Positions 480 through 16,180 of a DNA stretch of 64,000 bases are shown piece by piece. This stretch comes from Agromyces sp. G08B096 (GTDB taxonomy: Bacteria > Actinomycetota > Actinomycetes > Actinomycetales > Microbacteriaceae): positions 3,224,001-3,288,000 of the forward strand of contig NZ_CP158374.1 of assembly GCF_040267705.1 (NCBI RefSeq), in the 5' to 3' direction. The notes below the pieces were generated by a model. That model saw nothing but the letters and a program-made list of their open reading frames with translations, ran no database searches and was not told where the DNA came from. A program made the position numbers and the translations under genes. Each line of letters begins with the position of its first letter. The stretch's first letter is position 1.

Positions 480-504
480 GAGAGAACCCTATCGAGTGCG
501 GAGA

Positions 505-539: not shown

Positions 540-545
540 CCTCCC

Positions 546-743: not shown

Positions 744-761
744 GGTTGGCGGGTTCCCTTT

Positions 762-1786: not shown

Positions 1787-1787
1787 G

Positions 1788-1930
1788 TCATTCTCCTTGG
1801 GTGGTGGTGGGCGGTTCGGGGGTCGGGACGACGGCGGCCTGTACGGCGGCGATGAGCGCGAGGTGTCGGCAGCCGGCGCGGTGTAGCGGACGGTCGTGGA
1901 GGTCACGGTCTCCTGGGTCTGTTCGATCAC
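1788..1930 (-). CDS. Possible small protein, needs a -1 frameshift to read naturally
   Basis: A GTG start at 1930 has a good ribosome binding site (AGGAGCCCCAGTG). The first 23-24 codons read VIEQTQETVTSTTVRYTAPA..., then the frame turns into Pro/Arg-rich nonsense that would fuse to the endolysin. The -1 frame instead gives LALIAAVQAAVVPTPEPPTT and stops at 1788-1790, just before the endolysin start. The product would be 47 residues. This may be programmed frameshifting, a real mutation, or a sequencing error. Function unknown. Confidence 0.4.
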
Positions 1931-1938
1931 TGGGGCTC

Positions 1939-2508
1939 CTAGGTGCGGATGATGAAGTTGAGGACGAGGTAGGGCTGGAGGTTGTTGTGGGCTTGGCCAC
2001 CGCCCGAGCCGCCGGTGTTGATGCCCTGGGGGTAGATGCCTCCGGCCGAGTCGGAGTCGTAGTCGTTCCGGACGGCTGTCCCGCCCGTGTTGGCGCTCAC
2101 GTTCTGCGCGTGGGAGTGGTTCGGCATCTCGGCGATGGTGAGTGTGTGGGTCTTGGCGCCGCCTGTCTCTCCCATGGCGTTGAACTCGGCTTGTGCGGCG
2201 TCGAGGGCGACCGGGACGCGGCCTTTGAGGTTCGGCAGGTTGAACGTGCTGGAGCCGTTGCCGGCGCCGTAGGTCGAGCCGATGAGGGCGTAGAGGTCGG
2301 CGTACGTGGTGCGGGATACGGCCGCGCCGTCGCAGAGCAGCCAGCCGGCGGGCGCCGCCGAACCGGCGAACGCTTCGACGGCGCCGGTCGGCACGGTGCG
2401 CGCTTCGGCGGCGTCCAGGTCGCCCTGGATGATGGCGAGCCGGGTGAGCAGGTCGCCGTTCTTGGACTCCAGGATGCGGAGCCGCTCTTCGAGTTCTCGG
2501 AATGCCAT
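1939..2508 (-). CDS. Tail collar-domain protein (tail fibre/tip)
   Basis: 189 residues. Residues 1-35 form a charged heptad-rich helix (coiled coil for trimerisation). Residues 40-85 match a phage tail-collar domain (VPTGAVEAFAGSAAPAGWLLCDGAAVSR ... STFNLPNLKGRVPVALD, read in two parts). The C-terminus is Gly/His/Asn-rich (MPNHSHAQN, GGSGGGQAHNNLQPYLVLN), typical of collar proteins ending in NFIIR-type strands. It probably forms part of the receptor-binding tail tip and follows the large minor tail gene by 9 bases. Confidence 0.82.
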   Translation of the reverse strand: MAFRELEERLRILESKNGDLLTRLAIIQGDLDAAEARTVPTGAVEAFAGSAAPAGWLLCDGAAVSRTTYADLYALIGSTYGAGNGSSTFNLPNLKGRVPVALDAAQAEFNAMGETGGAKTHTLTIAEMPNHSHAQNVSANTGGTAVRNDYDSDSAGGIYPQGINTGGSGGGQAHNNLQPYLVLNFIIRT

Positions 2509-2517
2509 GGCGTCGTC

Positions 2518-4542
2518 CTAGAGGGGTTGGAGGTCGAGGGTGATCAGCCAGCGCGTCGGCTGAATGTCGTGGGTGATCGCGATGATCTGCGAGTCCTGTT
2601 CGGAGCCGTTGAAGCGAACGAGGATGCGCTGGCCCACGTCGAGGGCTCTGGCCATTGCGAGGTCCTGCTGGGCATTGAGGCGGAGCTGGGCGACGAGCAG
2701 CTCGGGCTGGTCGCGGGAGTCGAGGATCGCGGCCAGGCGGTCGTTGAGCGAGTCGTCGTAGGGCGGTTCGCTGTAGAGGTTCGTTCGGAGGGTCTGCGAG
2801 CGAGTGCCGTAGGCGGTGATGGAGGCCGGCGAGGTGACCACCAGCTCGTCGTTCTTCTCGTTGGTGCGGGCCTCGTCCACGCCGTAGTTGGTGACCACCA
2901 GGCGGTTGGTCATAGCACGGGTGTCGTAGCCGGCGGACACGTCGATGTAGCTGTGCGCGTCGGCGTCAACGGCATCCGAGAACACGGCGGACATCGGCAG
3001 GGCGCTGCCGGGGAGGACGAAGCGGGTAACGCCGTCCTTGCCGACGAGCCACGAGGCGCCGACCGAGTTGCATGCGAGGTCGAAGTGTGTGGCAAGGTCG
3101 GACTCCAGCACGGTCTCGCGGAGGCGCTGCGGATAGTCGGTGTTCCGCTCCAGCAGCTTCATGCCGGTGAACGCGGCGCGCTCCACGGAGTTCTGGGCGC
3201 CGGTGACAACGACGGCCTCGGCCAGGAGAATCTGGACGGTGACGGTCGTGGCGTCGGCGACGAACTCGACGTAGCCGAGGCTCGTCGGCGCCTGGCCGAG
3301 GGTGACCGGGGCGGCGCTCGATTCACTGAGGACGCGGAGTCGGTAGGCGTCGGCGAGCGGCGCGCCGGAGATCGAGCCGGATGCCTCGAAGCGGTACGCC
3401 TTGCCGGGCACGAGGCCGGCGATGACTCGCTGAATGCCGAAGGTGTCGGCGGCGAGGTTGACCGAGCCGGTCGAGAGCGACTCCAGCCAGAGCGCCTGGG
3501 CGGCGCCCTGGGTGCCTCGGCGGAGGCCCGAGGCGGTGAAGTAGCTGATGGCGGCGGGCTTGGCGCCCACGCGGGTCCAGCCGTCGAGGTCGCCAGAGTC
3601 CAGAACCAGGAGGTGGCTTCTCGAGCTGGAGTAGCTGTTCACGCCGCCGGCGGTGCGCGCGGCGACGCGGGCGTAGTAGATGCGCCCGCCGGACAGGCCG
3701 GGGTGCGTGTAGGTCAGGACGTTGCCCACGTCCACGTTCACGAGGTCGGTGGTGAACGTCGAGTTGGTCGCGATCTGGACGCGGTAGCCGATGAGGCCCG
3801 TGGTGACGCTGGGCGCGGTCCAGGAGGCGATGAGACCGCCGGCGGCGTTCTGGGTGAGGTCGGTGAGTGTCGGCGCCGGCAGGCCCACGGCAACCGAGAG
3901 CGAGGTGGACCAGGCGCCCCAGCCCTGCACGTTGCGCCCGCGCGAGCGCGCCCAGTAGGTGTATCCGGGCGCGACGGTGAACGTGGTGGTGCCGCTGGAG
4001 CTGACGGTCTGGACGTTGGTGGTGAACGCGGAGTCGGTGGCGATCTGGGCTTGCCACTCCAGGATCGGGGCGCCGTTGTCGCTGTTGCCGGAGAACCGGT
4101 AGCGGAAGCTGCTACTGGTCACCTCGTCAATGCCGATCGGCGTCGGCGCGTCCGGCGGCTTCGGGATGCGGGAGAACGTGACGCTGCCGCCGGTCGAGCC
4201 GTCGCCCAGCTCGCCCCAGGTGTTGTTGTCGTCCCAGCCGGCACTAAACGAGGCGGTGAGGTAGCCGGCGGAGTTGTGGCCGAGGTTCACCTGGCCGGAG
4301 CCCAGCACCAGCTCGGAGTAGTTGCGGAAGTCGTACGAGGGGATCGAGCCCGACCCCGGCACGCCTCCGATGTTCACGGACCAGTAGTGCGGGCCATCGG
4401 CCCAGCGGCCGGAGCCCGAGCCCTTGATGATGCGGAGCGACCAGCCGACGACGGTGTAGTTGCCGGCGTAGCTCTGGGCGTCCTGGGTGATGGTCAGGCG
4501 GAGGATGTATCCGCTCGCGAGTGCTGCGTCGAACGTGGCCAT
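2518..4542 (-). CDS. Minor tail protein with fibronectin type III repeats
   Basis: 674 residues. The N-terminal 125 residues are a beta-rich domain (TLRL/VGWSLRIIKGSGSG...). Residues about 130-320 contain two FN3-like repeats (PPDAPTPIGIDEVTSSSFRYRF and PAPTLTDLTQNAAGGLIASW, each with paired aromatic strands ending in YWARS/YYARV). The C-terminal part (about 400-674) is rich in beta structure and ends DIQPTRWLITLDLQPL, as in baseplate or tail-tip proteins. It lies downstream of the tape measure gene and probably contacts the host envelope. Start codon overlaps the stop of the previous gene (TAATG). Confidence 0.82.
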   Translation of the reverse strand: MATFDAALASGYILRLTITQDAQSYAGNYTVVGWSLRIIKGSGSGRWADGPHYWSVNIGGVPGSGSIPSYDFRNYSELVLGSGQVNLGHNSAGYLTASFSAGWDDNNTWGELGDGSTGGSVTFSRIPKPPDAPTPIGIDEVTSSSFRYRFSGNSDNGAPILEWQAQIATDSAFTTNVQTVSSSGTTTFTVAPGYTYWARSRGRNVQGWGAWSTSLSVAVGLPAPTLTDLTQNAAGGLIASWTAPSVTTGLIGYRVQIATNSTFTTDLVNVDVGNVLTYTHPGLSGGRIYYARVAARTAGGVNSYSSSRSHLLVLDSGDLDGWTRVGAKPAAISYFTASGLRRGTQGAAQALWLESLSTGSVNLAADTFGIQRVIAGLVPGKAYRFEASGSISGAPLADAYRLRVLSESSAAPVTLGQAPTSLGYVEFVADATTVTVQILLAEAVVVTGAQNSVERAAFTGMKLLERNTDYPQRLRETVLESDLATHFDLACNSVGASWLVGKDGVTRFVLPGSALPMSAVFSDAVDADAHSYIDVSAGYDTRAMTNRLVVTNYGVDEARTNEKNDELVVTSPASITAYGTRSQTLRTNLYSEPPYDDSLNDRLAAILDSRDQPELLVAQLRLNAQQDLAMARALDVGQRILVRFNGSEQDSQIIAITHDIQPTRWLITLDLQPL

Positions 4543-5036
4543 TAGAACGCGTACACCTCCCTCGGGGCGCCCACAGGTGGCACTTCGACGGGCGCCTGGG
4601 CGGAGCCGGACAGGCGGTTGACGCGGGACTCGAAGGTCTCGAAGCCCTCGGCGATCTGGACGCCGTAGCGGGGCGTGGCGGCGTGCACCTGCACGGCGTC
4701 GGAGGCGGTGACGGTGACGACGGCTCGGAGGGCGCCGGTGCCCTTGTTGATCGGATAGGCGGAGGCGATATCCACGATGCGCCCGGTGAAGAGCGGCCCG
4801 GCCTCGGCCATGACGCGCACGGCCTGGCCGGGCACGAAGGTGCCGCCGGCGAGCGGGTCTTGGGCGTCGCGGAGGGTGAAGGTGCAGAGCCCTACGTCGG
4901 TCTTGACGCCGAGGCCGTCGCGGCTGCCGCCTCGGCGGATGGTCACGCCGGTCGCGTCGGCGATGTAGGTGACCCAGGCGGCGCCTTCCAGGGCCTGAAT
5001 GTCTACCTTCTCGAAGAGCGGGCGTTCGGTGATCAC
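4542..5036 (-). CDS. Minor tail / tail-tip protein
   Basis: 164 residues starting with GTG (VITERPLFEKVDIQALEG) that overlaps the stop of the tape measure gene (GTGA), which fixes the start. It is beta-rich, with a central segment (FTGRIVDIASAYPINKGTGALRAVV, quoted in part) like the domain of tail-tip proteins that follow the tape measure in siphoviruses. It has no catalytic motif. A long reading up to 6884 in this frame is a shadow of the tape measure gene. Role as distal tail or hub protein is inferred from gene order. Confidence 0.72.
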   Translation of the reverse strand: MITERPLFEKVDIQALEGAAWVTYIADATGVTIRRGGSRDGLGVKTDVGLCTFTLRDAQDPLAGGTFVPGQAVRVMAEAGPLFTGRIVDIASAYPINKGTGALRAVVTVTASDAVQVHAATPRYGVQIAEGFETFESRVNRLSGSAQAPVEVPPVGAPREVYAF

Positions 5037-7123
5037 AGCCGGCCTCCAGCGCTCTCGTAGTCGCGGATGGACTGGACGATGATCCGGCCGGTCTCGGCGG
5101 TCGGGTTCAGGGCTGACAGGTAGATGTTGTAGACGGGCGCCGGCCCCCCGGCGGCGGATGCGCCGGCGGCGGCGAACCCGAGGTCGGGGGCGGCGACGGT
5201 CGGGCGGAAGTCGGCGACGCGGCCGGCCAGGCCGTCGAGGCTCTTGTCCACCAGGCGAGCGTTGCCGTCGAGGCCCTGCACCAGGCCCTGAACGACGTTC
5301 TTGCCGTAGCCGGCGAACAGGCGTGAGGGCGAGTGGATGCCGAGGAAGCCGAGGAACCCGTCGATGGCGCTGCCGGCGATATCGAGCAGCGCGGCGCCGA
5401 CCGAGCCGGCGGCTTCCCAGAGCCCGCTCACGAGTCCGCCGATGAGATCGATGCCGGCCTGGATGAGCTGGGGCACGAGCCCGATGAGGGTGGAGACCAT
5501 CTTGGGAGCGAGGTCGATGAGGGCGGTGATGAGCTGGGGCAGCACCTTGGGGATGGCCTCCACGATGCCGGTGAAGAGCTTGACGGCGGCGTCGATGAGC
5601 TTCGGGATCATGCCGACGACGGTGGTGATGATCTTGGGCAGCAGGTCGAGGATGGCCGTGATGAGCAGCGGCAGGATGATCGGCAGCGACTCCACGAGGG
5701 AGGTGAAGAGCTTCACGGCGGCGTCGAGGATCGCGGGGATCAGGCCCAGGATGGTCTCGATCAGCTTCGGCAGCAGCTCCACGATGGCGGTGACGAGCAG
5801 GGGCAGGATGACCGGCAGCGCCTCCACGAGGGAGGTGAACACCTGGACGGCCGCCTCCAGGAGCACGGGGATCATCGAGATCAGGGTGGTCAGGATCGGC
5901 GGCAGCAGCGCGACGATGCCGGACAGCAGCGCCGGCAGTACCTGGATGAGCGCGTTGAGCAGGCCCTGGAAGAGCTGCACGGCGCCGGCGAGGATGACGG
6001 GCGCCTGGGCGACCAGCATGGTCGCGAGCTGGGTGACCAGGGCCACGAGCCCGGTGACGATCGCGGGGATCGCGGCGACGAGGGCCTGGAGGATGGCGGG
6101 GAACACCTGGAGGGCGGCGTCGAACACGGCGGAGCGACCGGACACGATGCCGTTGACGATCGTGGCGGCGCCGCCGGCGGCGAGCCAGTTGGCGGCGTTC
6201 TGGATGCCGCTGACCGCGGCGTCGAGCAGGCCGGAGAACATCGAGCCGAAGTCGAGGGAGGCGGTGCCGTTGAGCAGGTTGAACACGAAGTCGGCGAACG
6301 TGTTGGAGGCATCCGTCAGGTAGCCGGTGAACGCCTCGAAGGCGGCGGACTCCTGTACTCGGGTGACGAGGGCGCCGATTGCGGCCGTGACGGCGGTGAC
6401 GGCCGGCAGGAGGGAGAACCCGAGGGTGGCGAACAGGTTTTCGGTGCCGGCGGCGAGCCGCTGCTGGGCGCCGGCGAGGGTGGTGCTCTCGCGGGAGAAC
6501 GCGCCCTGAGCGTCGGCGGTCTGCTGGTACAGCAGCGCGAGCGTCGCCTGGAGCTTGGCATTCTTCTCGGCCTCGCCGGTGAGCCCGGACAGGCCCATCT
6601 CGGCGAGCTTGGCCTGGACGGCTGCCTCGTTGATCGAAACGCCGTAGCGCTCGATCGGGTCGCGCTCGCCTCGGAGCAGCGACGAGAGCGCCGACACGGC
6701 GTCCGAGGTCGAACCGCCGAACTGGGCAGCGAGGTCGGCGCCGAGGCCGACGAGCTTGTTGGTCTGGCCGGCGAGCTGATCCTGGGCCACACCCATGTTC
6801 TTGAGCTGGGCGCCGAGCACGGTGGACAGCGAGGCGTACTCGCTCTTGGCCAGGCCGACCGAGTTGGCGGCCTTGGTCGCCCACGCTTCCATCTGGGTTC
6901 CGCTCTTGCCGAATACGGCGTACATGCCGCCCATGGCTTGCTCCAGCTCGGAGGCGCTCTTGACGGCCTTGACGCCGAGGGCGCCGACCGCGACGGCGGC
7001 GGCTGCCGCGACGGCGCTGGCGACCTTGCCGAACTTGGCCAGGCCCGACTCGCTCTCGCCGAGCGCCCGCTGGAGGCTGCGGGCGTTGCCGGTGATGCTG
7101 ACGACGACGGTATTACCGGCCAT
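5033..7123 (-). CDS. Tail tape measure protein
   Basis: 696 residues. It opens with a beta/helical start (MAGNTVVVSITGNARSLQRAL) followed by the conserved tape-measure helix region (SASELEQAMGGMYAVFGKSG). Residues about 325-560 hold at least five hydrophobic helical repeats built on the theme LPxILPxLxxAIxxLLPKxxxxxxxxIPxxLxAAVxLFxxLV. The C-terminus ends near residues SAGGRL. The protein sets tail length and is ejected ahead of DNA; the hydrophobic repeats likely help cross the membrane. At 696 residues it predicts a short tail (about 100 nm by the usual 0.15 nm per residue). Confidence 0.93.
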   Translation of the reverse strand: MAGNTVVVSITGNARSLQRALGESESGLAKFGKVASAVAAAAAVAVGALGVKAVKSASELEQAMGGMYAVFGKSGTQMEAWATKAANSVGLAKSEYASLSTVLGAQLKNMGVAQDQLAGQTNKLVGLGADLAAQFGGSTSDAVSALSSLLRGERDPIERYGVSINEAAVQAKLAEMGLSGLTGEAEKNAKLQATLALLYQQTADAQGAFSRESTTLAGAQQRLAAGTENLFATLGFSLLPAVTAVTAAIGALVTRVQESAAFEAFTGYLTDASNTFADFVFNLLNGTASLDFGSMFSGLLDAAVSGIQNAANWLAAGGAATIVNGIVSGRSAVFDAALQVFPAILQALVAAIPAIVTGLVALVTQLATMLVAQAPVILAGAVQLFQGLLNALIQVLPALLSGIVALLPPILTTLISMIPVLLEAAVQVFTSLVEALPVILPLLVTAIVELLPKLIETILGLIPAILDAAVKLFTSLVESLPIILPLLITAILDLLPKIITTVVGMIPKLIDAAVKLFTGIVEAIPKVLPQLITALIDLAPKMVSTLIGLVPQLIQAGIDLIGGLVSGLWEAAGSVGAALLDIAGSAIDGFLGFLGIHSPSRLFAGYGKNVVQGLVQGLDGNARLVDKSLDGLAGRVADFRPTVAAPDLGFAAAGASAAGGPAPVYNIYLSALNPTAETGRIIVQSIRDYESAGGRL

Positions 7124-7150
7124 GTCGGTGGTCCTTTCGGTGGCGGCTCA

Positions 7151-7177
7151 CCCTCCGCCCCTGGTTGGGGCGGAGGG
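7151..7177 (-). promoter_or_regulatory. Intergenic hairpin before the tape measure gene
   Basis: Perfect 11-bp arms CCCTCCGCCCC (7151-7161) and GGGGCGGAGGG (7167-7177) with a 5-base loop. It lies between the stop of the frameshifted chaperone (7186) and the tape measure start (7123). With no T-tract, it may act as an attenuator or RNA-processing site that lowers tape measure expression relative to the upstream genes. Confidence 0.55.
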
Positions 7178-7185
7178 GCCGGCTG

Positions 7186-7589
7186 CTATCGGAGGCGGCG
7201 GGAGCGGCGGGCGGCGTCAGCGATGGCGCGCTGTTCGCCGAGGGTGAGCTGGTCGTACTCGGACGGCTGGATGCCGAGCACGACGAAGCTGGCCTTTACT
7301 CGGTCGCGCTCTCGTCGGAGCGCTCGCCTTTTCCCTCGTCGGAGTCCTCGGCGGGCTCGTCGTCGTCCAGGCCGATGACGGCGTTGGCCTCGTCCAGGGT
7401 CAGCGCCATCGCCTGGTTGAACGTGAAGGTGGGCTCGCCCGAGCGGCGCTTGGCCACCATGGCGAGAGCGGCGAGGGCCTTGCCCTTCGGGGACTCCGCC
7501 ACGGCGATGGCGGAGATCGACAGGCCGGAGAGGTCTTCGATGATGGACACCTCGCCGAGGGTGAGCGAGTCGAAGTCGAACGATGCCAT
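7186..7589 (-). CDS. Tail assembly chaperone, -1 frameshift product (G-T type)
   Basis: Ribosomes that slip -1 at the heptamer GGGAAAA (7335-7329) continue for 47 codons after Lys87 and stop at 7186-7188, giving a 134-residue fusion. The added tail reads VKASFVVLGIQPSEYDQLTL then GEQRAIADAARRSRRLR, which looks like the C-terminal part of siphovirus T proteins (xxYDxLTLGEQ). As in lambda G/GT, the fusion should bring the tape measure protein to the growing tail. The extension is too short to appear as an independent gene. Confidence 0.82.
7296..7589 (-). CDS. Tail assembly chaperone, short (0-frame) form
   Basis: 97 residues, beginning MASFDFDSLTLGEVSIIEDL, with an acidic C-terminus (DDDEPAEDSDEGKGER). 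It lies between the tail proteins and the tape measure gene, the invariant position of siphovirus tail assembly chaperones. It should coat the tape measure protein during tail assembly and is the more abundant of the two products. The slippery site is at codons 86-87, ten codons before its stop. A good ribosome binding site is present upstream (AGCAGAAACGAGAC is weak; spacing unclear). Confidence 0.82.
   Translation of the reverse strand: MASFDFDSLTLGEVSIIEDLSGLSISAIAVAESPKGKALAALAMVAKRRSGEPTFTFNQAMALTLDEANAVIGLDDDEPAEDSDEGKGERSDESATE
7329..7335 (-). promoter_or_regulatory. Slippery heptamer for programmed -1 frameshift
   Basis: On the minus strand the bases read G GGA AAA in the frame of the chaperone gene (end of GAG85, then Gly86 and Lys87), a canonical X XXY YYZ site. 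After slippage the frame stays open for 47 codons and yields a plausible T-type tail. Confidence 0.85.
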
Positions 7590-7612
7590 GGGTGTCTCGT
7601 TTCTGCTGGGGG

Positions 7613-8017
7613 CTACGTGAGCCCGTTGTTTCGGAGGATGAGATCTATGCCGGAGGCCAGCTCGGCGACGACGCGGCCCTGGGAGCGCTTGAGAGCGTCG
7701 GTGAGGAACGGCTGGGCTCGGTTGCCTCGGTGCGGGTCGCCGTAGTGGACGACGCCGGCGTGGGCGCCCCGGCTGCGGTAGCCGGCGCGGACGACGGCTT
7801 TGGTTTTGCCCTTGCCGGCGCGGAGGGTGCCGGCGAGCTCGCCCGAGTTGCGGGGCGGGCGGGCGTTGGTGATGACGATGGTTCCCAGGCGGTGCATCAG
7901 CTCGGACATTTCGCTGAGGTCGGAGCCGGCTGCCCGGAGCTTTCGATTCACCTCGGCCACGCCTTCCACCAGGACGGTTCCGCCCTGGTGGAAGGCGCTG
8001 CCTGCCTGGGTGGCCAT
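7613..8017 (-). CDS. HK97 gp10-like tail/connector component
   Basis: 134 residues, rich in Arg and Gly, with the core VIVITNARPPRNSGELAGTL (in part) and RAGYRSRGAHAGVVHYGDPH that recalls HK97 gp10-type tail-completion proteins (basic, with the motif of a loop before a hydrophobic strand). Its start overlaps the stop of the major tail gene (TAATG). Gp10-type genes usually precede the major tail gene; here the gene follows it, so it may be a different minor tail protein. Confidence 0.6.
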   Translation of the reverse strand: MATQAGSAFHQGGTVLVEGVAEVNRKLRAAGSDLSEMSELMHRLGTIVITNARPPRNSGELAGTLRAGKGKTKAVVRAGYRSRGAHAGVVHYGDPHRGNRAQPFLTDALKRSQGRVVAELASGIDLILRNNGLT

Positions 8018-8454
8018 TACGGGGTGCCGTCGTCCAGGACGGGCTCGCCGTCGATCTTGAACTCGAACTCGAACGAGAACGCCGAGGTGGGCGAGGTCGA
8101 GGCTTCGCCGCCGATGGTCGGCTTGGGGCCGATGGTGAGTGTGCCCACCAGGTGGGGCTCGTTGGCGGTCGGGGCGGCGTTGCCGTGGGGCGCGACCGTG
8201 TACGGGACTTCCGTCTGGCCGGTGTTCTCCCAGACGTAGCGCCAGAACGAGACCGTGGCGGTGGACTGCGTGGCCGAGCCTCGCAGGTAGAACTGGCGGG
8301 CACCGCCCGAGGCGGCGTCCTCGAACGTCACCACGTCCGAGTCGGCCTCCTCGTTCTCGATCGAGTACGAGATCAGGTCGGCGGACTGGTCGGTCCCCGG
8401 CGTGCCGAGGGTGAGGACGGGCTTCTTGTTGCCCCTGATGCGAGGTGAACCCAT
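8017..8454 (-). CDS. Major tail protein
   Basis: 145 residues, mostly beta: VLTLGTPGTDQSADLISYSI at the N-terminus, a middle sheet (TATVSFWRYVWENTGQTEVPYTV, in part) and the C-terminal strand FSFEFEFKIDGEPVLDDGTP. These features and its position between the tail terminator and the chaperones fit a siphovirus tail-tube subunit. The ribosome binding site CAAGGAG lies 6 bases before the start, as expected for a highly translated gene. Confidence 0.82.
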   Translation of the reverse strand: MGSPRIRGNKKPVLTLGTPGTDQSADLISYSIENEEADSDVVTFEDAASGGARQFYLRGSATQSTATVSFWRYVWENTGQTEVPYTVAPHGNAAPTANEPHLVGTLTIGPKPTIGGEASTSPTSAFSFEFEFKIDGEPVLDDGTP

Positions 8455-8455
8455 T

Positions 8456-8836
8456 TCATGCTCCTTGGGTGAAGGTCACGGGTGTCGTGACGGTGATGGC
8501 GGTGACGAGGCCCTGGGCGTTGTTGAACGCCATGGCGTAGGGCTGGCTGACCTGTTCGACCAGCCAGCCGTCCGCCTCCAGCGCGGCCTGGGCGGACTCG
8601 ATCAGCTCGTCCAGAGCTGACGTTTCGGAGTCGTTGTCCCCGGTCTGGGTGCAGACGACGACCTCGAATCGGACGGTTCGCTCGCCGAGCGTCGGCCCCG
8701 ATTCGATGTAGGGCGAGCCGGCCATGACGAACACGCCGGGAAGGGCCATGCGGCCGGGGACGTGGGTGTAGAGGTTGAGGTCGAGGCCGGCCAGCGCGTC
8801 AACCAATTCCTGACGGAGGGTGCCGAGCTGGCTCAT
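8456..8836 (-). CDS. Tail terminator protein
   Basis: 126 residues with the alpha/beta layout of HK97 gp10/lambda gpU-like terminators: N-terminal helix (LGTLRQELVDALAGL), strands VFVMAGSPYIE and TVRFEVVVCTQT, a helix (ALDELIESAQAALEADG) and C-terminal strands (VTAITVTTPVTF). It caps the tail tube and contacts the connector. It lies between connector and major tail genes; the start overlaps the connector stop (ATGA). Confidence 0.78.
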   Translation of the reverse strand: MSQLGTLRQELVDALAGLDLNLYTHVPGRMALPGVFVMAGSPYIESGPTLGERTVRFEVVVCTQTGDNDSETSALDELIESAQAALEADGWLVEQVSQPYAMAFNNAQGLVTAITVTTPVTFTQGA

Positions 8837-9162
8837 GCGAACCCCAGCGGCAGGTAGGGCTGGAGGATCGGGTAGGCGCCGACCATCGGGTCACGGGCGA
8901 CCCGGATGGCGGACCCGTCCGGCCCGGCGAACTGCGAGATGCCGTTCGGGGCCGCGCGGCGGTTGAACAGCTCAGAGCCGACCTCGATGGTCGCCCGGTC
9001 GAGCACCGCCTGGGGAACCGTGGCAGCGCCGACGTAGGCGACGACCAGGGCCTCCGCCTCGGTCAGGCTCGCCTCGATGAACTCCTGGTCGGTGGTCGAG
9101 ACCTGGGCGGCCCCGGACTTGACGTAGGAGGTGAGGCGGGCGATCAGCTCGGCGGAGGCCAT
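8833..9162 (-). CDS. Head-tail connector (adaptor) protein
   Basis: 109 residues, mainly helical at the N-terminus (AELIARLTSYVKSGAAQVS, FIEASLTEAEALVVAYVG), then a DRATIEVGSELFNRR helix typical of HK97 gp6-like adaptors, and a Pro/Gly-rich C-terminus. It follows the capsid gene by 5 bases and should bind the portal ring to make the head-tail joint. Confidence 0.78.
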   Translation of the reverse strand: MASAELIARLTSYVKSGAAQVSTTDQEFIEASLTEAEALVVAYVGAATVPQAVLDRATIEVGSELFNRRAAPNGISQFAGPDGSAIRVARDPMVGAYPILQPYLPLGFA

Positions 9163-9167
9163 GGCGA

Positions 9168-10757
9168 TCAGGCCGCCGCGAGCTTGACGGGGACGACGAG
9201 CTGGGGCACCTCGGCCGCGACGGCGCCGTAGCGGTAGACGCTGAAGTCCTTGGACAGGTTGATGATGTTCTCGTCCTGGAGCGAGACCAGGCCGCTGTCG
9301 TACTGACGGATGGCGCGGCCGTTGACGAACACCGCCTTGTCGCCGGCCTGGCCGGGGTCGAGGTAGACGGGCAGGCCGGCCAGGTTGCCGGTGAGGCCGG
9401 GGAGGTTGAGCGTGCCGCTCGCGTTCTTCTCGGCGACGGTGAAGACCCGCTCGCCGGCGACGGTCAGCGAGCGGAGCTTCTTGAACACGGTGGCGGACAC
9501 GATGAGCGCCTCGGGGCTCGCGTCCTCGCCGTCGTACTTGAGCGCGGCGTCGATCAGGGCGTCCTCCCAGTTGCCGGCGACCGAGGCGGCGAGGGTGGCG
9601 CCGAGCAGGACGACGCCTGCGTTGGCGGCGATGCCCTCGCGGGCGGCGACGAGCGTGCCGAACGCCGAGCGCAGGACGGCCTTCTTGCGGGCGCCGGCGG
9701 CGAGGGCGAGCGCCTCCAGCGAGCGGTTGAGCAGCGGCATCGTGGAGCGCTCGATGGCCTGGCGGGTGAGCTGGGTGTAGCCGCCGAAGGTCTCGACCGG
9801 GGCGGTCTGGGTCGTCAGGGTGACCTTGCCGTAGGCGAGGTCGTCGCCCTCATTGGCCTGCTTCTCGACCTTGACGGTGTTGCTGGCCAGCTCGCCGTAT
9901 TCGATCGTCATGCCCTGGGCCGGCAGGGTGCCGGTCGAGAACACCTCGGCGAGCACGCCGGACGAGCTGTCGAACAGGCGGGTCAGGTCACCGACCCACT
10001 GGTCCTGCATCGGCGCGTCGGCCGAGGTGCCGCCGGTGTAGGCGCGCTCCTGGGCCTGGTTGTAGCGGTCGATGGTGGACTGGTCGCCGGCGACGATGGC
10101 GCGGAGCACCTCGCCGGCCGAGCGGGTGTCGATCTCGGGGGCGTCGTCGCGCTGCTGGCCGAGCGCGAACCGGCGCTCCAGCTCCTGCACGGTGTCGGCG
10201 AGTTCGCGGACGTCGATCTCGGGCTCTTCGGTGACTGCGGGCATGGTGTTCTCTCTCTCCTGGGTGGTGGCGGCGGGGATGGCCTCGCGGACGCTCGTGA
10301 CGACGGCGCCCTCGTAGGCGGGGAACGGCACGAGGCTGACCTCGTAGACCTGGGCACGCTTGTGCGTGATGTGGGGCACGTCGCCGGACTCGTCCACCTC
10401 GTACTGGTCGAAGCGGAAGCCGACCGAGTGCCGGGTGAGCACGCCGTCGCGGGCGAGCGTGAGCGCGTCGTCGCCGGCGCGCGTGTTCGACACGAGGGCG
10501 GTGATCTCCCAGCCCTCTTCGGTGTCGCGGTGCGAGGTGATCCGGCCGATCGGCTCGCCGTGCCGGTAGAGGTAGAGCGCGCCGTCCGAGTCCTGGATCG
10601 CGCCGCGCTCGAACTCTTCGGTGAACCAGCCGCCGATATCGGCTCGCTGGCCCCAGGGCACGGCGATGCCGGTGATCTCGCGGCGCTCGGTGTCGGCCGA
10701 CCGGATGGTCAGCTCGCGGGTCGCGTGCTCGGCGAGCAGCGCGGCGTAGTCGGTCAT
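9168..10757 (-). CDS. Capsid maturation protease fused to major capsid protein
   Basis: 529 residues in one open frame. Residues 1-165 match a HK97-type (U35) prohead protease: ERREITGIAVPWGQ, the His in LTRHSVGFRF, and EVSLVPFPAYEG. Residues 172-230 form an acidic coiled coil like the HK97 delta (scaffold) domain, and the rest is a HK97-fold capsid protein (VKVEKQANEGDDLAYGKVTL, LPGLTGNLAGLPVYLDPGQA). An ATG at 10244 (Met172), 11 bases after GGAG, could also give free capsid protein of 358 residues. Start overlaps the portal stop (ATGA). In-frame continuation above 10757 is a shadow of the portal gene. Confidence 0.88.
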   Translation of the reverse strand: MTDYAALLAEHATRELTIRSADTERREITGIAVPWGQRADIGGWFTEEFERGAIQDSDGALYLYRHGEPIGRITSHRDTEEGWEITALVSNTRAGDDALTLARDGVLTRHSVGFRFDQYEVDESGDVPHITHKRAQVYEVSLVPFPAYEGAVVTSVREAIPAATTQERENTMPAVTEEPEIDVRELADTVQELERRFALGQQRDDAPEIDTRSAGEVLRAIVAGDQSTIDRYNQAQERAYTGGTSADAPMQDQWVGDLTRLFDSSSGVLAEVFSTGTLPAQGMTIEYGELASNTVKVEKQANEGDDLAYGKVTLTTQTAPVETFGGYTQLTRQAIERSTMPLLNRSLEALALAAGARKKAVLRSAFGTLVAAREGIAANAGVVLLGATLAASVAGNWEDALIDAALKYDGEDASPEALIVSATVFKKLRSLTVAGERVFTVAEKNASGTLNLPGLTGNLAGLPVYLDPGQAGDKAVFVNGRAIRQYDSGLVSLQDENIINLSKDFSVYRYGAVAAEVPQLVVPVKLAAA

Positions 10758-11914
10758 GCGGTGGCCTCCTGGGTGGTCGGGGCGGTCTCGGGGAGCGGGC
10801 CGAGGTTCTCGATCTCGCGGACCTCGGCGACGGTCATGAAGCCGGCCTCCAGGGCGACCTTGTGCGCGTTGTAGCGGGTGGTCGTGTCCGAGCGGAGCAG
10901 CGCTTCGACGTTGAACTTGGCCGAGGTGCCGCGCGGCAGCAGCTCGGTCAGCGCGTCCTCGATCTCGACCAGGTAGGACATGAGGGCGAACCGGATGTAG
11001 CCCAGCCAGTCCTGTTCGACGTTGGCGTAGGTCTGGGTCGAGCCCTCGATCGAGGCGAGCATGAGCGAGGCCGGCACGCCGAAGAGGCGGGCGATCTGGG
11101 TGACGGTGAACTTCTGCGATTCGAGGAACTGGGCGTCCGCCGGCGAGAGGAAAATCTGCTGGTATGCGAGGCCGGCGCCGAGCACGGCGACGCCCTTGCG
11201 AGCGCCTTGGCTCTCGTTCCACTGAGCCTTGGCCTGCTTGGCCACCTCGGCGGTGAGGTGCTGGTCGGATTTGAGCACGCCGTTCGGGACGCCGGAGTCC
11301 TCGAACCAGTTGGAGCTGTAGTCGCGGAGGTCGAGGGCGCCGCGCAGCTCGACCTGGGCGGCCTGGATCGGGCCGAGGCCCTTGAGCGAGCCGGGGACGC
11401 GGAGCAGGCTGAGGTGCTGCACCTCGTGAGGCTTGAACCGGGTGGTGCCGGCGCCGCGCCGGTAGTCGTAGCCGATGAGCTTGCCGGCGGCGTCGGCGAC
11501 GGGCTCGCAGTCGAGCGGGTTGAGCACGGCGACGTTCTGCACCTGGCCGAACGAGTCGAGCGTCTTGCGCCAGTAGGCGTTGCCGGAGCAGGCGAGGGAC
11601 ACGACGCTCTGTTCGATGAACGCCGAGCGGCTGACGCCGAGGTCGGGCCGGCGGATGAGCGCCGGGGTGCGCTTGACGAGCTTGCCGTCGCGCTCGGCGC
11701 CGAGCGAGAGCTGCTTGGCCGAGATCGCGTGAATCTGGATCGCGCGGTAGACCATCGAGATCGAGAACGCGTCGCCGGTCGTGACGGCGCGCGGCGCGGC
11801 AGTGCGGGCCGGCGGCGTGGTCGCGGTGCTCGGGTCCGAGGGCGGGGCGGTCTCTTCGCGGGTCGCGGGCTCGGCCGGAATCGGGCCGAGCAGCCAATCA
11901 GCGAACCGCCCCAT
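10754..11914 (-). CDS. Portal protein, HK97 family
   Basis: 386 residues. After a Pro/Thr-rich leader (to about 45), the conserved portal core begins (DAFSISMVYRAIQIHAISAK), with NPLDCEPV, the GLGPIQAAQVELRGALDLRD helix region, SNWFEDSGVPNGVLKSD and the wing/crown helix FLESQKFTVTQIARLFGVPA. It forms the dodecameric DNA gate at one capsid vertex and docks the terminase. The ribosome binding site GGAAGG is inside a strong hairpin just upstream, which suggests controlled translation. Confidence 0.93.
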   Translation of the reverse strand: MGRFADWLLGPIPAEPATREETAPPSDPSTATTPPARTAAPRAVTTGDAFSISMVYRAIQIHAISAKQLSLGAERDGKLVKRTPALIRRPDLGVSRSAFIEQSVVSLACSGNAYWRKTLDSFGQVQNVAVLNPLDCEPVADAAGKLIGYDYRRGAGTTRFKPHEVQHLSLLRVPGSLKGLGPIQAAQVELRGALDLRDYSSNWFEDSGVPNGVLKSDQHLTAEVAKQAKAQWNESQGARKGVAVLGAGLAYQQIFLSPADAQFLESQKFTVTQIARLFGVPASLMLASIEGSTQTYANVEQDWLGYIRFALMSYLVEIEDALTELLPRGTSAKFNVEALLRSDTTTRYNAHKVALEAGFMTVAEVREIENLGPLPETAPTTQEATA

Positions 11915-11956
11915 GAGACTGCCTTCCGTCGTGGTGATCGAACGGAAGGCAGTCTC
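11915..11956 (-). promoter_or_regulatory. 15-bp hairpin covering the portal ribosome binding site
   Basis: Perfect 15-bp arms GAGACTGCCTTCCGT (11915-11929) and ACGGAAGGCAGTCTC (11942-11956) flank a 12-base loop. On the minus strand the 3' arm contains GGAAGG, spaced 8 bases from the portal ATG at 11914, so folding would hide the ribosome binding site. It may also work as a partial terminator after the terminase gene. Confidence 0.75.
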
Positions 11957-11969
11957 GGAGTTCCAAAAT

Positions 11970-13463
11970 TTAGAACACCTGCAGCGTGTCGTCGGTCTGC
12001 GTTTCTGCGGCCAACACGCCGAGAGCGAGGGCCATGATGCCGTCGATCTCGATGGACGAGTCCTTGCGGCTGATCCTGAACCCGTCGCCGACGTTCTTGC
12101 GGACGGTGCGGGGCGCCTGGAGGTTCAGCAGCTCGGAGCCGTCGTGCTCCAGGTCGCCGGTCGCGAGCTTCGCGTAGAGCAGCGCCGAGCCGTTCATCAC
12201 GTCGCCCTGGCTCGCGCCCCAGACGGGCAGGCCGCGCTTCTTGAGTTCGTTGCCGAGATCCTTGAGCGCGTACCAGTCCATGGCGAACGTGAGCGGCTGA
12301 TGGCGGGCGAGATCGACGCACACGTTGACGAGCTGACTGAGCGAGGGTTTCGCGATCGAGGCGACCAGCTCGGCCGAGGTCGTGTCGCCGTGCTTGATCG
12401 TCGCGACGATCGCGGCGAATCCCCAATCGGGCGTGCGGTCGATCGTGAAGATCGGCCGGCCGGCGGGGAACTCATCGGCCTTGCGCTTGCGGCTGGCCCA
12501 GAGCGTGGCGGTGATGAATGCGTTGGTCGAGGCGGTGAAGCGGTTGAGGCGGTAGCGGATCACGTCGGCCTCGGGCATCCCTCGAACGTCGCTGATCGCG
12601 GTCTCCAGGTCGAGCCGGCCGCATGCGAGACCGGGCGAGGCGGCGATGAGGTAGCGGCCGAGGGTCTCGTCGTCCTCGGGGACTCGCGCCTCGGGCGCCT
12701 CCCAGATGAAGTAGCCGAAGCGCTCGGGGGCGTCCTCGGCCAGCTCGTAGAGGTCGATCAGCAGCTCGGAGTTCTCGTCGCCGGCGGTCGTGAGCCCGAT
12801 GACGATGCCGTTGCGGCGGGCGGCGGTGCCGTTCACCATGTCCGACCACAGCTCGCGCTTGGTGATGTGCAGCTCGTCGGCGAGGCCAACGGTGAGGTCG
12901 AGGCCCTGGACGGCAGCGGACTTGGACGGCTTGATCTCGTAGCGCCCGCCGTCCACGGACTGGATGCCTCGGGTGTCGGTGAGCCGCTTGAACTTCGCGG
13001 CCAGGCGCTTGTTGCCTCGGATGACGGCGAGCAGTCGGGCGTAGATGATGCGGGCCTGTTCGGCGGACGAGGCGATGCCGATGACGAGGGCGCCGGCCTC
13101 GCGGACGAGCCCGTAGAGGCCGAAGATCGCACCCAGGACGCTCTTGCCGTTCTGGCGGCTGACGCTCACGAGCACCTGGCGGTAGCGGAGTTCGCCGGCG
13201 CGCGGGTGGCCCTCGGGGTACACCTCCAGGGCGGCGATGATGAGCCAGCGCTGCCACACGTCGAGCTGGATCGGGCTGCCGTCCGGGAGCTTCCAAACCT
13301 TATCGACCAGGCGGAGCAGCCAGTAGCCGTGCGAGGGGAAGCTGTCGGGGTTGCCGACCCAATCGAATCCATCGTCGGGGCTGACGCCGAGGGGCAGCGA
13401 GAACCGCGCCGGCAGCCAGAGCGGTCGCTCAGGCGCCGGCGCGGCGGGCGTCAGGACGGTCAC
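11970..13463 (-). CDS. Terminase large subunit
   Basis: 497 residues. The ATPase domain has a Walker A-like SRQNGKS at 102-108 and Walker B VGLADE (D196, E197), followed by the coupling segment LTTAGDEN. The C-terminal nuclease domain starts near residue 340 with the acidic FTIDRTPDWGFAAIVA and ends with DGIMALALGVLAAE, whose Asp is a typical metal ligand. It packages DNA through the portal. The start codon overlaps the small subunit stop (GTGA/ATGA style), placing both in one operon. Confidence 0.95.
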   Translation of the reverse strand: MTVLTPAAPAPERPLWLPARFSLPLGVSPDDGFDWVGNPDSFPSHGYWLLRLVDKVWKLPDGSPIQLDVWQRWLIIAALEVYPEGHPRAGELRYRQVLVSVSRQNGKSVLGAIFGLYGLVREAGALVIGIASSAEQARIIYARLLAVIRGNKRLAAKFKRLTDTRGIQSVDGGRYEIKPSKSAAVQGLDLTVGLADELHITKRELWSDMVNGTAARRNGIVIGLTTAGDENSELLIDLYELAEDAPERFGYFIWEAPEARVPEDDETLGRYLIAASPGLACGRLDLETAISDVRGMPEADVIRYRLNRFTASTNAFITATLWASRKRKADEFPAGRPIFTIDRTPDWGFAAIVATIKHGDTTSAELVASIAKPSLSQLVNVCVDLARHQPLTFAMDWYALKDLGNELKKRGLPVWGASQGDVMNGSALLYAKLATGDLEHDGSELLNLQAPRTVRKNVGDGFRISRKDSSIEIDGIMALALGVLAAETQTDDTLQVF

Positions 13464-13789
13464 GAGTTGCGGGCCTCGTCCAGGATGCCGTCAACCTCGT
13501 CGTCGTCGTCGCCGTCGAGCGCCGGCGCCTGGTTGCGGAGATCGCGGAAGGCCACGCCGAACTGGGAGACCATGGCGGCGGTGACGCGCTGGTCGAGTTG
13601 GCGGGCGAGGGCTCGGAGGGTCACCAGGGCCGGCTTGTGCTGGGGTCCCAGCCAGTCGCTCGCGTCGATGAACTCGCGCACGGCGCCCACGAACGAATCG
13701 TCGGCGTCGTCGGTCGCTTTCCGGTCGAGATCGGCGTCAATCTGGGCATCCACGAGGGCGTCGATCGGCCCCTGGTTTGCTCCGCTCAT
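13460..13789 (-). CDS. Putative terminase small subunit
   Basis: 109 residues. The acidic N-terminus is followed by helices (FVGAVREFIDASDWLGPQHK, PALVTLRALARQLDQRV, MVSQFGVAFRDLRNQAP) and a very acidic C-terminus (DGDDDDEVDGILDEARNS). Size, helical content and direct overlap with the large terminase gene fit a small subunit that recognises the packaging site. No clear helix-turn-helix is visible, so the assignment relies mainly on position. Confidence 0.72.
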   Translation of the reverse strand: MSGANQGPIDALVDAQIDADLDRKATDDADDSFVGAVREFIDASDWLGPQHKPALVTLRALARQLDQRVTAAMVSQFGVAFRDLRNQAPALDGDDDDEVDGILDEARNS

Positions 13790-13886
13790 CTGCTGTTCCT
13801 TCGGTCTGAAATGTTTGGGGACTGTGCGTGAAAATCGGGACTGGGGGCGGGGTGCGGGAGGTGCCGGCCAGGAAACCGGCCGGCCA

Positions 13887-14138
13887 TCAGACCTGGCTCA
13901 GCCATCGGCGGTTGAACCAGGTGATGCGAGCCCCGAGCCGATTGCCCTTCCGGCTGTTGCACGGCTTGCACGAGGCCACGAGGTTCAGCAGCTCGTCCTT
14001 GCCCCCGGCCTCCTTCGGGATGATGTGGTCGGCCTCGGTTGCCTCGCCTCCGCAGTACGCGCAGATGTGCTGATCGCGCTCCAGCACCTGGAGGCGCAGG
14101 GCATCCCACGCGGCGCCTCGGCTCGAATGCTGGCTCAT
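13887..14138 (-). CDS. HNH endonuclease
   Basis: 83 residues. The HNH fold is evident: CAYCG (C26, C29), ADHIIPKEAGG with D37-H38, NL at 52-53 and CKPCNSRKG (C57, C60, N61). These zinc and catalytic residues are all present. In siphoviruses an HNH protein next to the terminase is often needed for cos cleavage or packaging. The start is taken at MSQHSS, where ATG overlaps the upstream stop; an extension to 14219 is a shadow. Confidence 0.88.
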   Translation of the reverse strand: MSQHSSRGAAWDALRLQVLERDQHICAYCGGEATEADHIIPKEAGGKDELLNLVASCKPCNSRKGNRLGARITWFNRRWLSQV

Positions 14139-14410
14139 GCACGGCCGGCCTTCCCGAGGTAGCGCTGCCGGTCGTAGTGCGGGCGGCAGAGCCCACGAGT
14201 CACGCCGTACTCGTTGCACCCTGTCTCGCTACACCTGGGCAGGGCACGCTCTCGCTCGATGAGGCGGTGGGCCGTGGCCTCGGTCTCGGCTCGTGTCTTG
14301 CTGAGGTAGACCCAAGAGGCCCGGCAGATCGAGCAGTAGACGACATGCGAGGCATCCGACGAGTCAACGGTCACGGGAGTCGGGCGCCCGGTCGCCTGGT
14401 GGTTCGCCAC
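14135..14410 (-). CDS. Small zinc-binding phage protein
   Basis: 91 residues with two Cys clusters: CSIC at about 26-29, and C..TGCNEYGVTRGLCRPHY at about 60-78, a pattern of zinc-binding knuckles seen in small phage proteins near HNH genes. Between them lies a helix (SKTRAETEATAHRLIERERA). It overlaps the HNH gene start by 4 bases. Nucleic-acid binding is likely, but the target is unknown. Confidence 0.7.
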   Translation of the reverse strand: MANHQATGRPTPVTVDSSDASHVVYCSICRASWVYLSKTRAETEATAHRLIERERALPRCSETGCNEYGVTRGLCRPHYDRQRYLGKAGRA

Positions 14411-14788: not shown

Positions 14789-15030
14789 CAGCGGACACCG
14801 CCCGTCATCAGCCAGGCCGCGACAGCGGCCATGCCGATCGCGAGCACGGTGAGGCCGGCGATCGTCAGCACCTGGGCGGCTGCCGTGTCGCGGAAGGTGC
14901 GACGACGGTGAGCCACAGGGCGGACGTGCTCGCGCTCAAAGCCGGTGCTGTGGAGGCCGGCGTGACCGGACTCCAGGACGCACTGGATGGCGGGCACTGC
15001 GGCCGTGAACTTGCTGGTGCATCGGGTCAT
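14788..15030 (-). CDS. Small membrane protein with N-terminal Cys/His cluster
   Basis: 80 residues. The N-terminal part has Cys4, Cys17 and the motif ESGHAGLHS, a pattern that resembles a short metal-binding module in actinophage proteins. The C-terminal part has one hydrophobic helix (VLTIAGLTVLAIGMAAVAAW). The gene overlaps its neighbours by one to four bases. Function unknown. Confidence 0.62.
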   Translation of the reverse strand: MTRCTSKFTAAVPAIQCVLESGHAGLHSTGFEREHVRPVAHRRRTFRDTAAAQVLTIAGLTVLAIGMAAVAAWLMTGGVR

Positions 15031-15728
15031 GCGACTTCTCCTGTCGTGGTGTTGACGACGAGGGGCGCCTGCCCCTCATCGGGGCGGCGGGCGCCGCAGT
15101 GCCGGCAGTAGCCGGAGGTCTCGTAGGAGTGCTCGCCGGCACGACGGCCAGGGCACTTCGACTCGCTCGACTTGAGGCGAGCGGCAGCCAACGCGGCGGA
15201 GCCGCCAGAGGGCCGGGCGCTCTGCGCCTCCGATCTCGCTCTGTGGTTGCTTTGGGAAGTCTTAGAGAGTGTTTTAACTGGTGTTCTTATAGGCGTTGGA
15301 TCATCCAATGCGGTCCGCGTTGGATCATCCGATGCGGCGATCGACTTATCCACAGGCCGCGTTGGATCATCCAATGCGGTTCCGAAGAGGGCCAGGTCGC
15401 CCTGGTCGTGCGGGTCGCTGATCTCCCAGTCGTGGCCCAGGAACTGCGAGCCGACGCCCTTGATCGGGATGCGCTTGAGGTAGCCGGCCTGCTCCAGCTC
15501 TTCGACGGCCGTGCGCACGGCGTCGATGCCTTCCCTGGGCGACTCGGCGGCGAGGTTCTGGAGCGTGATGGCCCAGCCGTCATCGTGCGACCAGACGGCC
15601 GAGAGGATGCCTCGGGCTCGATAGCTGAGGTTCTTGTCGCGGAGCCAGGAGTTCGCGATCTGGGTGAAGTTGCGCTCGTACCGTGCGCGGCGTCGGATGA
15701 GGCGCGGTTCGCGGCCGGCGCCGCTCAT
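15027..15728 (-). CDS. Phage replication initiator-like winged-helix protein
   Basis: 233 residues from MSGAGREP (an ATG at 15770 would add 14). Residues 12-95 form a winged helix as in many replication or regulator proteins (FTQIANSWLRDKNLSYRARG, ITLQNLAAE, AVRTAVEELEQAGYLKR). The central part is low in order and includes three DDPTR-like repeats that are encoded by DNA iterons. The C-terminus has a possible zinc ribbon (C...H...YCRHCGARRP). The origin-like DNA inside the gene parallels lambda O. It is the first gene of the leftward operon and divergent from the repressor. Confidence 0.72.
   Translation of the reverse strand: MSGAGREPRLIRRRARYERNFTQIANSWLRDKNLSYRARGILSAVWSHDDGWAITLQNLAAESPREGIDAVRTAVEELEQAGYLKRIPIKGVGSQFLGHDWEISDPHDQGDLALFGTALDDPTRPVDKSIAASDDPTRTALDDPTPIRTPVKTLSKTSQSNHRARSEAQSARPSGGSAALAAARLKSSESKCPGRRAGEHSYETSGYCRHCGARRPDEGQAPLVVNTTTGEVA
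15256..15379 (-). other. Candidate replication origin: three iterons, DnaA box, AT-rich segment
   Basis: Three copies of a 21-base iteron (GCGTTGGATCATCC then R-ATGCGG) lie at 15293-15313, 15317-15337 and 15359-15379, the middle one with one change. Each has the near-palindrome TTGGATCATCCAA. A perfect DnaA box TTATCCACA sits at 15346-15354 between iterons 2 and 3. Next to iteron 1 is a stretch (15256-15292) much richer in A/T than the surrounding DNA. In the direction of the gene, iterons come first and the AT-rich part second, the order found in the lambda origin inside gene O. Confidence 0.75.
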
Positions 15729-15744
15729 CGGCGCGTCCCAATTT

Positions 15745-15793
15745 TGTGCATAACGCCCACGTTCATCCACAGTGTGAATAAGTCTGTGGATTG
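15745..15793. promoter_or_regulatory. Cluster of four DnaA-box-like 9-mers
   Basis: TGTGCATAA (15745-15753), TCATCCACA (15763-15771), TGTGAATAA (15773-15781) and TGTGGATTG (15785-15793) differ by one or two bases from TTATCCACA or its complement. They fill the divergent space upstream of the replication gene. They may bind host DnaA; alternatively they are Cro/repressor operators, since they also cover the likely leftward promoter. Confidence 0.55.
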
Positions 15794-15835: not shown

Positions 15836-15842
15836 GGCGCCC

Positions 15843-16142
15843 ATGACGATGTTCGTGGAAACCCCGACCGGAACGCTGGCGGAACGCCTACGGAAGGCTC
15901 GCCTGCTCGCTGACCTCGACCAGAACGAGCTGGCGGCTCAGCTCGGCATCGCGCGCAACTCGATCTCGAACTACGAGACCGGGCGCAGCGAGCCGAGCGC
16001 CTCGACGTTCGTTCGGTGGGCGCAGATTACCGGCGTGACGCTCGAATGGCTCGCCGAGGGCGTTAACGCGAAAACGGCCCCAGTCGAAACTGGAGCCGTT
16101 CGCTCAGTGCGCCCGGAGGGACTCGAACCCCCAACCTTCTGA
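15843..16142 (+). CDS. Phage immunity repressor, XRE/HTH type, 3' end in the att site
   Basis: 99 residues from MTMFVETPTG. Residues 10-65 form a Cro/C1-type helix-turn-helix (LAERLRKARLLADLDQNELA, LGIARNSISNYETGRSEPSA), followed by WAQITGVTLEWLAEG. The last 12 or so codons (RSVRPEGLEPPTF) are antisense to the 3' half of tRNA-Arg, and codons just before them form the tRNA terminator hairpin. The C-terminus is thus created by integration and would differ in the free phage. ATGs at 15813 and 15831 are possible but lie in promoter-like sequence. Divergent from the replication operon. Confidence 0.82.
   Translation: MTMFVETPTGTLAERLRKARLLADLDQNELAAQLGIARNSISNYETGRSEPSASTFVRWAQITGVTLEWLAEGVNAKTAPVETGAVRSVRPEGLEPPTF
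16073..16100 (-). terminator. tRNA-Arg terminator inside the repressor reading frame
   Basis: Arms AACGGC-C-CCAGT and ACTGG-A-GCCGTT close on a CGAA loop. On the minus strand the stem is followed by TTTTCG, a Rho-independent form, 8 bases after the tRNA 3' end. It therefore ends the tRNA transcript, while the same bases encode repressor residues around KTAPVETGAV. Confidence 0.8.
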
Positions 16143-16150
16143 TCCGTAGT
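16108..16150. other. Prophage attachment site (right junction)
   Basis: Phage genes run up to the tRNA 3' end and host-type genes begin beyond its 5' end. Tyrosine integrases commonly recombine in tRNA 3' halves, so the core is expected between the anticodon stem and the 3' end. The exact borders need the left junction, which is not in the window. Confidence 0.7.
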
Positions 16151-16180
16151 CAGATGCTCTATCCATTGAGCTACGGGCGC
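16108..16180 (-). tRNA. tRNA-Arg (ACG)
   Basis: 73 bases fold as a full cloverleaf: acceptor GCGCCCG/CGGGCGC, D arm GCTC...GAGC, anticodon stem TCTGA/TCAGA with loop CTACGGA (anticodon ACG) and T arm GGGGGTTCGAGTCCCTC (one G-T). CCA is not encoded. The 3' half is on the prophage side and was probably restored by the phage attachment site. Confidence 0.97.

Follow-up and report, generated by a model that had tools for sequence, protein, structure and literature searches.

A repressor gene ending inside its attachment tRNA-Arg points to integration-dependent immunity in an Agromyces prophage, with a hydrophobic tail on the rebuilt viral form

A 17.3-kb temperate prophage at a tRNA-Arg(acg) gene of Agromyces sp. 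G08B096 probably uses integration-dependent immunity; on its sequence and the comparisons below, we put the probability at about 0.8. It lies at the left end of the window, the 64,000-nucleotide stretch that was analysed (genome 3224001-3288000). The first-pass annotation had proposed a switch like that of mycobacteriophage BPs, in which integration decides how the repressor ends, and this interpretation is supported at the sequence level. The BPs scheme is already known. What differs here is a hydrophobic repressor tail without an ssrA-like end, and a terminator-like hairpin antisense to the repressor gene.

The repressor gene occupies positions 15843..16142 on the plus strand and, by ORF call and profile matches, encodes an HTH protein of 99 aa in its prophage (short) form; an alternative TTG start lies at 15813 (+). 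The protein contains an HTH_3 domain (Pfam, E = 7e-16), and its residues 8-99 match PHROG 2328, 'transcriptional repressor'. The gene runs into tRNA-Arg(acg) (16107..16180, minus strand), which is rebuilt at the right junction (attR) from a presumably chromosomal 5' part and a presumably phage-supplied 3' part. The 35-bp attR core (16107..16141) is identical to the attL core at genome 3222780-3222814, and the crossover probably fell within it. The repressor codons V-R-P-E-G-L-E-P-P-T-F plus the stop (16107-16142) are antisense to the 3' 36 nt of the tRNA. The overlap noted earlier for the last repressor codons holds for these 11 codons and the stop; only 'RS' falls just outside the tRNA, a trivial correction. 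The TGA stop (16140..16142, +) takes its third base, the A at 16142, from the chromosome, and this is the first mismatch to attL, where G is found. Because the 35-bp core recurs identically beside an integrase gene at the left end, the overlap stands above chance, and an HTH protein overlapping a tRNA was also found in other genera, in the flanks of integrase relatives. The overlap of repressor and tRNA at the prophage junction is real. It is also very compact, since the repressor C-terminus, the attachment core, the tRNA 3' end and, apparently, the tRNA terminator share about 70 bp.

The left junction falls 1.2 kb to the left of the window. A copy of the tRNA 3' part at genome 3222780-3222824 (35 bp identical, 45 bp with two mismatches) provides the junction that had been predicted there, with the 35-bp core common to both ends; ARAGORN called no tRNA around this copy in 20 kb. 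Left of the attL core stands chromosomal-type sequence ending in ACTGTCTCAACCAGT; the same letters are found before the core in 9 of the 30 tRNA-Arg loci compared within the genus. Right of the core, a tyrosine integrase gene identified by profile match (plus strand, genome 3222898 or 3222943, for a GTG or ATG start, to 3223794) reads inward, as had been expected for the prophage end opposite the repressor. From core to core the prophage measures 17,327 bp. Its late genes (183..14219, minus strand) match profiles of holin, M23 lysin, tape measure, portal, terminase and HNH proteins. A divergent minus-strand gene (15027..15770) faces the repressor and encodes, by profile, a replication-initiation-like HTH protein of 247 aa. 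The interval between the two genes (15771-15842) is a probable control region.

Several further features were observed in and around the prophage. The replication-initiation-like gene holds three 22-bp repeats (GCGTTGGATCATCCAATGCGGT and variants; 15293-15380) and a TTATCCACA box (15346-15354), and TGTGAATAA lies in the control region (15773-15781); we take both motifs to be DnaA-box-like. Together, these elements suggest a possible origin inside the initiator gene. A gene for a 100-aa HTH protein follows the integrase (L007 15826-16128, ending at window position 128). By eye, look-alikes of this gene in G127 and in Microbacterium phage PensacolaC28 precede the integrase; its position relative to the integrase has therefore changed. 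At 40441-40524, near two tRNA-Ser genes, ARAGORN called an unusual tRNA-like structure whose anticodon has four bases (ggcg), perhaps a false positive.

The phage attP is known by reconstruction from attL and attR. Rebuilt in silico from both junctions, it encodes a repressor of 140 aa, which carries 41 residues (WSVVVSPLAGMLWLGLALRSIVSERSERRGEAEACSRIDRD) beyond the 99 of the prophage form. Its C-terminus differs from that of the prophage and the core does reach the repressor, as the proposal that integration decides the repressor's end had required. In the reconstructed phage form, the attP core lies inside the repressor ORF and the integrase follows downstream on the same strand; the tail stop precedes the integrase ATG by 4 nt and comes after the alternative GTG start. 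The attB site lies in a tRNA gene that integration rebuilds, and the prophage form is shorter through a stop at the junction. Wherever the crossover is placed within the 35 identical bp, the product has 140 aa; placed to the right of the first mismatch, it leaves 99 aa. At that mismatch (16142), attR has A, giving the TGA stop, and attL has G, giving TGG. All 30 tRNA-Arg loci of the genus that were compared (those fetched from the 60 genomes matching the tRNA region, own attR included) carry A as the chromosomal base, so the G after the core belongs to the phage unless attL mutated twice. The collections searched yielded no free form of this phage; the nearest integrases there stood at 49% and 45.5%, and near-identical entries may be hidden.

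Natural long and short forms were sought among 5.8 billion proteins with the rebuilt repressor, which gave 14 matches at E <= 1e-12, its own short form included. Two of them, P0010 and P0011, are identical at 121 of 130 residues; P0011 stops at PPTF, and P0010 continues for 44 residues that include NGVAGLGLLLVLALRAV, a hydrophobic tail. They form a natural long/short pair. Inspected by eye, the 13 matches other than our own comprise seven that run past PPTF, on contigs that may be free phages, four that end there or at a like place, and two that end otherwise. Three of the seven (P0010, P0014 and P0020) reach the hydropathy cut-off given below.

The arrangement recurs in relatives. The integrase is present in 26 of 398 sampled genomes of the family (E <= 1e-30, own included) and in 4 of 60 of the genus (E <= 1e-40). 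The genus search added G421, with two integrases, and G412; further genus searches gave integrase matches only in genomes found before. Flanks were taken from 14 family genomes besides our own, leaving out 11 genomes and a second G063 integrase. Among the resulting 18 loci, 15 had both junctions; the other end was not found for G293, for G276 or for the second G421 integrase. At 14 of these 15, the prophage has an HTH ORF that stops at the junction, no more than 5 nt from the end of the core, and that reads on in attP; in all 14 the viral form gains 15-86 aa. The relatives' repressors match HTH profiles in 13 of 13 cases, 12 above a Pfam cut-off and one (G275) below it. Twelve of the 14 sites are tRNA-Arg(acg), one is tRNA-Met and one tRNA-Lys. 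The exception among the 15 is G033. Near 642533 of G033:C1 (L068, L222), two repressor-like HTH ORFs, recognised by eye, and two cores separated by about 16.7 kb suggest tandem prophages. Both ORFs are out of frame with the usual tail, and the G033 left junction was dropped as a natural attP since the frame does not fit.

The closest integrase, 71% identical and sister to ours on the integrase tree, belongs to G421. There the core is 40 bp and the repressor uses another frame than ours, and the first mismatch again makes a stop (TAG versus GAG). The G421 viral tail, EPIGLVAMLWLALTIQSMVTRRG, resembles our own by eye, and in both phages hydrophobicity tracks the repressor frame. Three other elements at tRNA-Arg in the genus (G427, G415 and G440) lack the arrangement in our repressor's frame, with 31, 20 and 16 open codons, respectively, before the core end; their other frames hold 20-48 open codons, bar one of 318 in G415 (L206), which could be an exception. 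Core to core, these elements span 12.9 kb (L205, G427), 13.6 kb (L206, G415) and 4.8 kb (L207, G440).

Among phages, the repressor matches mycobacteriophage Sneeze (42.7% over 74% of its length), other BPs-type mycobacteriophages (41.9% over 74%), Curtobacterium phage Barebow (41.8% over 75%) and PensacolaC28 (63.3% over 49%); none of the records spans 80% of its length. Integrase matches are to Barebow and to the BPs-type mycobacteriophages, the latter at 35-36% over 92%. In the sampled free phages the repressor is followed by the integrase on one strand. The PensacolaC28 integrase is annotated as two adjacent ORFs (L012 2865-3741), and the tRNA seems, by eye, to be read by its repressor in sense orientation (SEGWEFESLRAH).

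We called a tail hydrophobic if a 17-residue stretch had a mean Kyte-Doolittle hydropathy of at least 1.6, a value taken here as membrane-helix-like. Our own tail reaches 1.89 and ends in ACSRIDRD, a hydrophobic tail in place of the C-terminal degradation tag that had been looked for; it has no ssrA-like end. The integrase, ending in SPIVRGIP, has no ssrA-like tag either. Such stretches occur in 8 of 14 rebuilt viral forms, in none of the 14 prophage forms and in none of 19 sampled free phages; at the same cut-off they occur in 291 of 12000 random segments free of stops and in 46 of 1749 ORF ends. An A or S at the C-terminus is found in 11 of 14 rebuilt viral forms and 18 of 19 free phages (29/33 together) and in 0 of 14 prophage forms, against 22-25% of ORFs in general, although the tails are related by descent and none of these counts carries a true probability. 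The free-phage sample of 19 combines 5 first picks with 14 selected by hand from two lists, some of them near relatives of one another, with attP assumed to lie inside each repressor; it includes PensacolaC28, which ends in E. The rebuilt forms without A or S are our own, whose tail could have decayed, G421 and G412. G412 is doubtful, because its 86-aa tail contains a glycine repeat and a second frame is hydrophobic too. An earlier compilation (18 of 20 ending in A or S) was replaced; it included G033, which is out of frame, and G293 and Tersicoccus L092, known from the left junction only, and lacked G412 and PensacolaC28. On an integrase tree of 21 rows the hydrophobic tail needs four changes, three of them forced by well-supported branches, which means more than one gain or loss. 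ssrA-like C-termini are a published mark of the repressors of integration-dependent immunity, as far as the accessible text of three papers goes (PMC9262239, PMC5559632, PMC9934374).

Transcription of tRNA-Arg at attR points toward the repressor gene. Inside the repressor coding sequence, a loose rule calls a terminator-like hairpin for the tRNA (16071..16099, minus strand) with an 11-pair stem, a TTCG loop and TTTT. The tRNA's original downstream sequence, with its own hairpin, stays at attL after integration. By the loose rule, a stem-loop and T run follow the tRNA on its strand at 10 of 15 attR junctions; on the repressor strand 2 of 15 pass, ours among them, and of 4500 control windows 116 do. 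A stricter rule gave 4 of 15 on the tRNA strand, 1 on the repressor strand and 42 of 6000 controls, our own junction on neither strand; it under-calls, its stems being allowed to swallow the T run, and the loose rule was set afterwards. The built-in scan of the junctions called neither a terminator nor a sigma-70 promoter. Of four phage attP stretches judged by a still earlier rule, only that of Barebow passes. By eye, our hairpin differs from the one after tRNA-Arg of G432 (L191), a member of the genus, at the two bases of one pair, a likeness which suggests that it may have been captured from a host. A terminator in our own phage is likely but weak.

Integration could then act as follows. 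In the circular phage, the repressor would be made as the 140-aa form with its 41-residue tail and hydrophobic helix-like segment, and would share one transcription unit with the integrase. The long form would be inactive through degradation or through membrane or hydrophobic sequestration. Integration would swap the base after the 35-bp core, creating the TGA that removes the tail, and would move the integrase to the opposite prophage end. The tail-less repressor would be stable and repress the divergent lytic gene, and the antisense hairpin would stop tRNA transcription before the repressor. We infer the functional switch from homology to the BPs-type system; its architecture and the truncation are visible in the sequence. 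More tentatively, and with rather less than even confidence, we propose for this Microbacteriaceae phage lineage that the hydrophobic helix-like tail serves as a membrane tether or exposes the protein to proteases without an ssrA-like tag, that the one-base truncation on integration frees a soluble repressor, and that a host-like antisense tRNA terminator shields its gene. Because tags are absent from repressor and integrase, we set this phage apart as a variant that would work like BPs, not as a plain member. The findings would extend a rare DNA-rearrangement switch to prophages of one family, which we take from the relatives to be Microbacteriaceae. They would also distinguish the removal of a tail on integration from ssrA-tag-like degradation, since the inactivating tail is possibly of another physical kind than such a tag.

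It could be objected that the phage, as phages often do, merely carries a tRNA 3' end, in which its repressor happens to stop, both forms repressing equally. Any ORF in our frame must meet the TGA of the tRNA, the canonical tag is missing here, and the long and short forms of BPs bind DNA alike in the accessible part of PMC4557955. We nevertheless regard an incidental overlap as quite improbable: two different frames, ours and that of G421, yield the same outcome, none of the three other elements at the site shows the arrangement in the frames that were covered, and the viral C-termini are strongly patterned, by A/S endings and by the hydrophobic stretches of the rebuilt forms, in ways that the 14 prophage ends are not. 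This patterning also bears on a role of the tail mainly in coupling integrase translation to the repressor mRNA, with protein stability secondary and integration silencing the integrase by taking it off the transcript. The short distance from our tail stop to the integrase ATG, beyond the GTG start, would suit such coupling, as would the 30-81 nt between tail stop and integrase match in 6 of 13 relatives; in the other 7 the distance exceeds 200 nt, and coupling gives no reason to expect tails that are hydrophobic or end in A/S. We consider it unlikely as the main function.

The truncation itself would disappear if the crossover had occurred beyond 16142 on the right, within the anticodon stretch, with later mutation of attL, since attP and attR would then encode the same protein. 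Identity does resume for 6 bp after the second mismatch, and a crossover there would leave the repressor at 99 aa. This history would need two later mutations in attL. Identity ends at the same CTTCTG in 12 of 13 tRNA-Arg loci with both junctions, G421 being the exception, and a long form found in nature has W directly after PPTF; we judge this history highly implausible. Loss of a promoter as the sole switch was dropped, as it leaves the patterned tails unexplained. Integration-dependent immunity through a removable repressor tail is the reading we prefer.

Integration-dependent immunity (Broussard et al. 2013) is outlined in the accessible text of PMC9262239 and PMC9934374. Another tie between tRNA and lysogeny, tRNA-dependent lysogeny, is reported in PMC10865867, as far as its accessible text goes, and Arthrobacter phage Galaxy carries attP outside the repressor according to the part of PMC5513430 available. 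In the literature searched, outside which most subscription papers lie, the accessible text held no report of a hydrophobic repressor tail or of a tRNA terminator at attP; nor did the searched listings on Microbacterium or the matches listed for Microbacteriaceae report these features. The terms 'tRNA' and 'attachment site' are absent from the accessible text of a paper on small Curtobacterium prophages (PMC9862828). Small Bifidobacterium prophages resemble ours in their compact genome, and the available text of PMC6109161 states integration-dependent immunity for them and mentions in-silico reconstruction. Compact genomes with repressor then integrase are likewise found in the small (16-18 kb) Gordonia phages GRU3, McGonagall, EricDab, Emperor and Rahul and in Barebow; unlike ours, the tails of the small Gordonia free phages and Barebow are non-hydrophobic and end in AA or AS. 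GRU3 and McGonagall belong to Gordonia cluster CW, for which the accessible text of PMC5559632 states integration-dependent immunity and gives GMA5, GRU3, Jeanie and McGonagall a common attP for tRNA-Lys. In the tandem Mycobacterium abscessus prophages prophiT36-2a/b, as described in part of PMC9934374, the repressors use different frames over a common core, like ours and that of G421, although their tags end in AA and their site is tRNA-Thr. The nearest parallel in detail is the BPs type (cluster G, with Angel and Sneeze; genes 32/33). BPs has attP in the repressor, with forms of 103 and 136 residues and an ssrA-like tag (PMC4557955, in part), and a 35-bp core in tRNA-Arg with the TGA made at the base adjoining the core (PMC9262239, in part). 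Our phage shares the attP in the repressor, the 35-bp core, the tRNA-Arg and the TGA beside the core, as well as the order of repressor then integrase on one strand and homologous versions of both proteins. The Angel integrase end (LVAGF), like ours, is not AA or AS. The differences lie in the Angel attP, which has no terminator-like hairpin by the earliest of the rules above, and in the tail, which in BPs comprises 33 aa with an ssrA-like tag and in our phage 41 aa that are hydrophobic and end in RIDRD.
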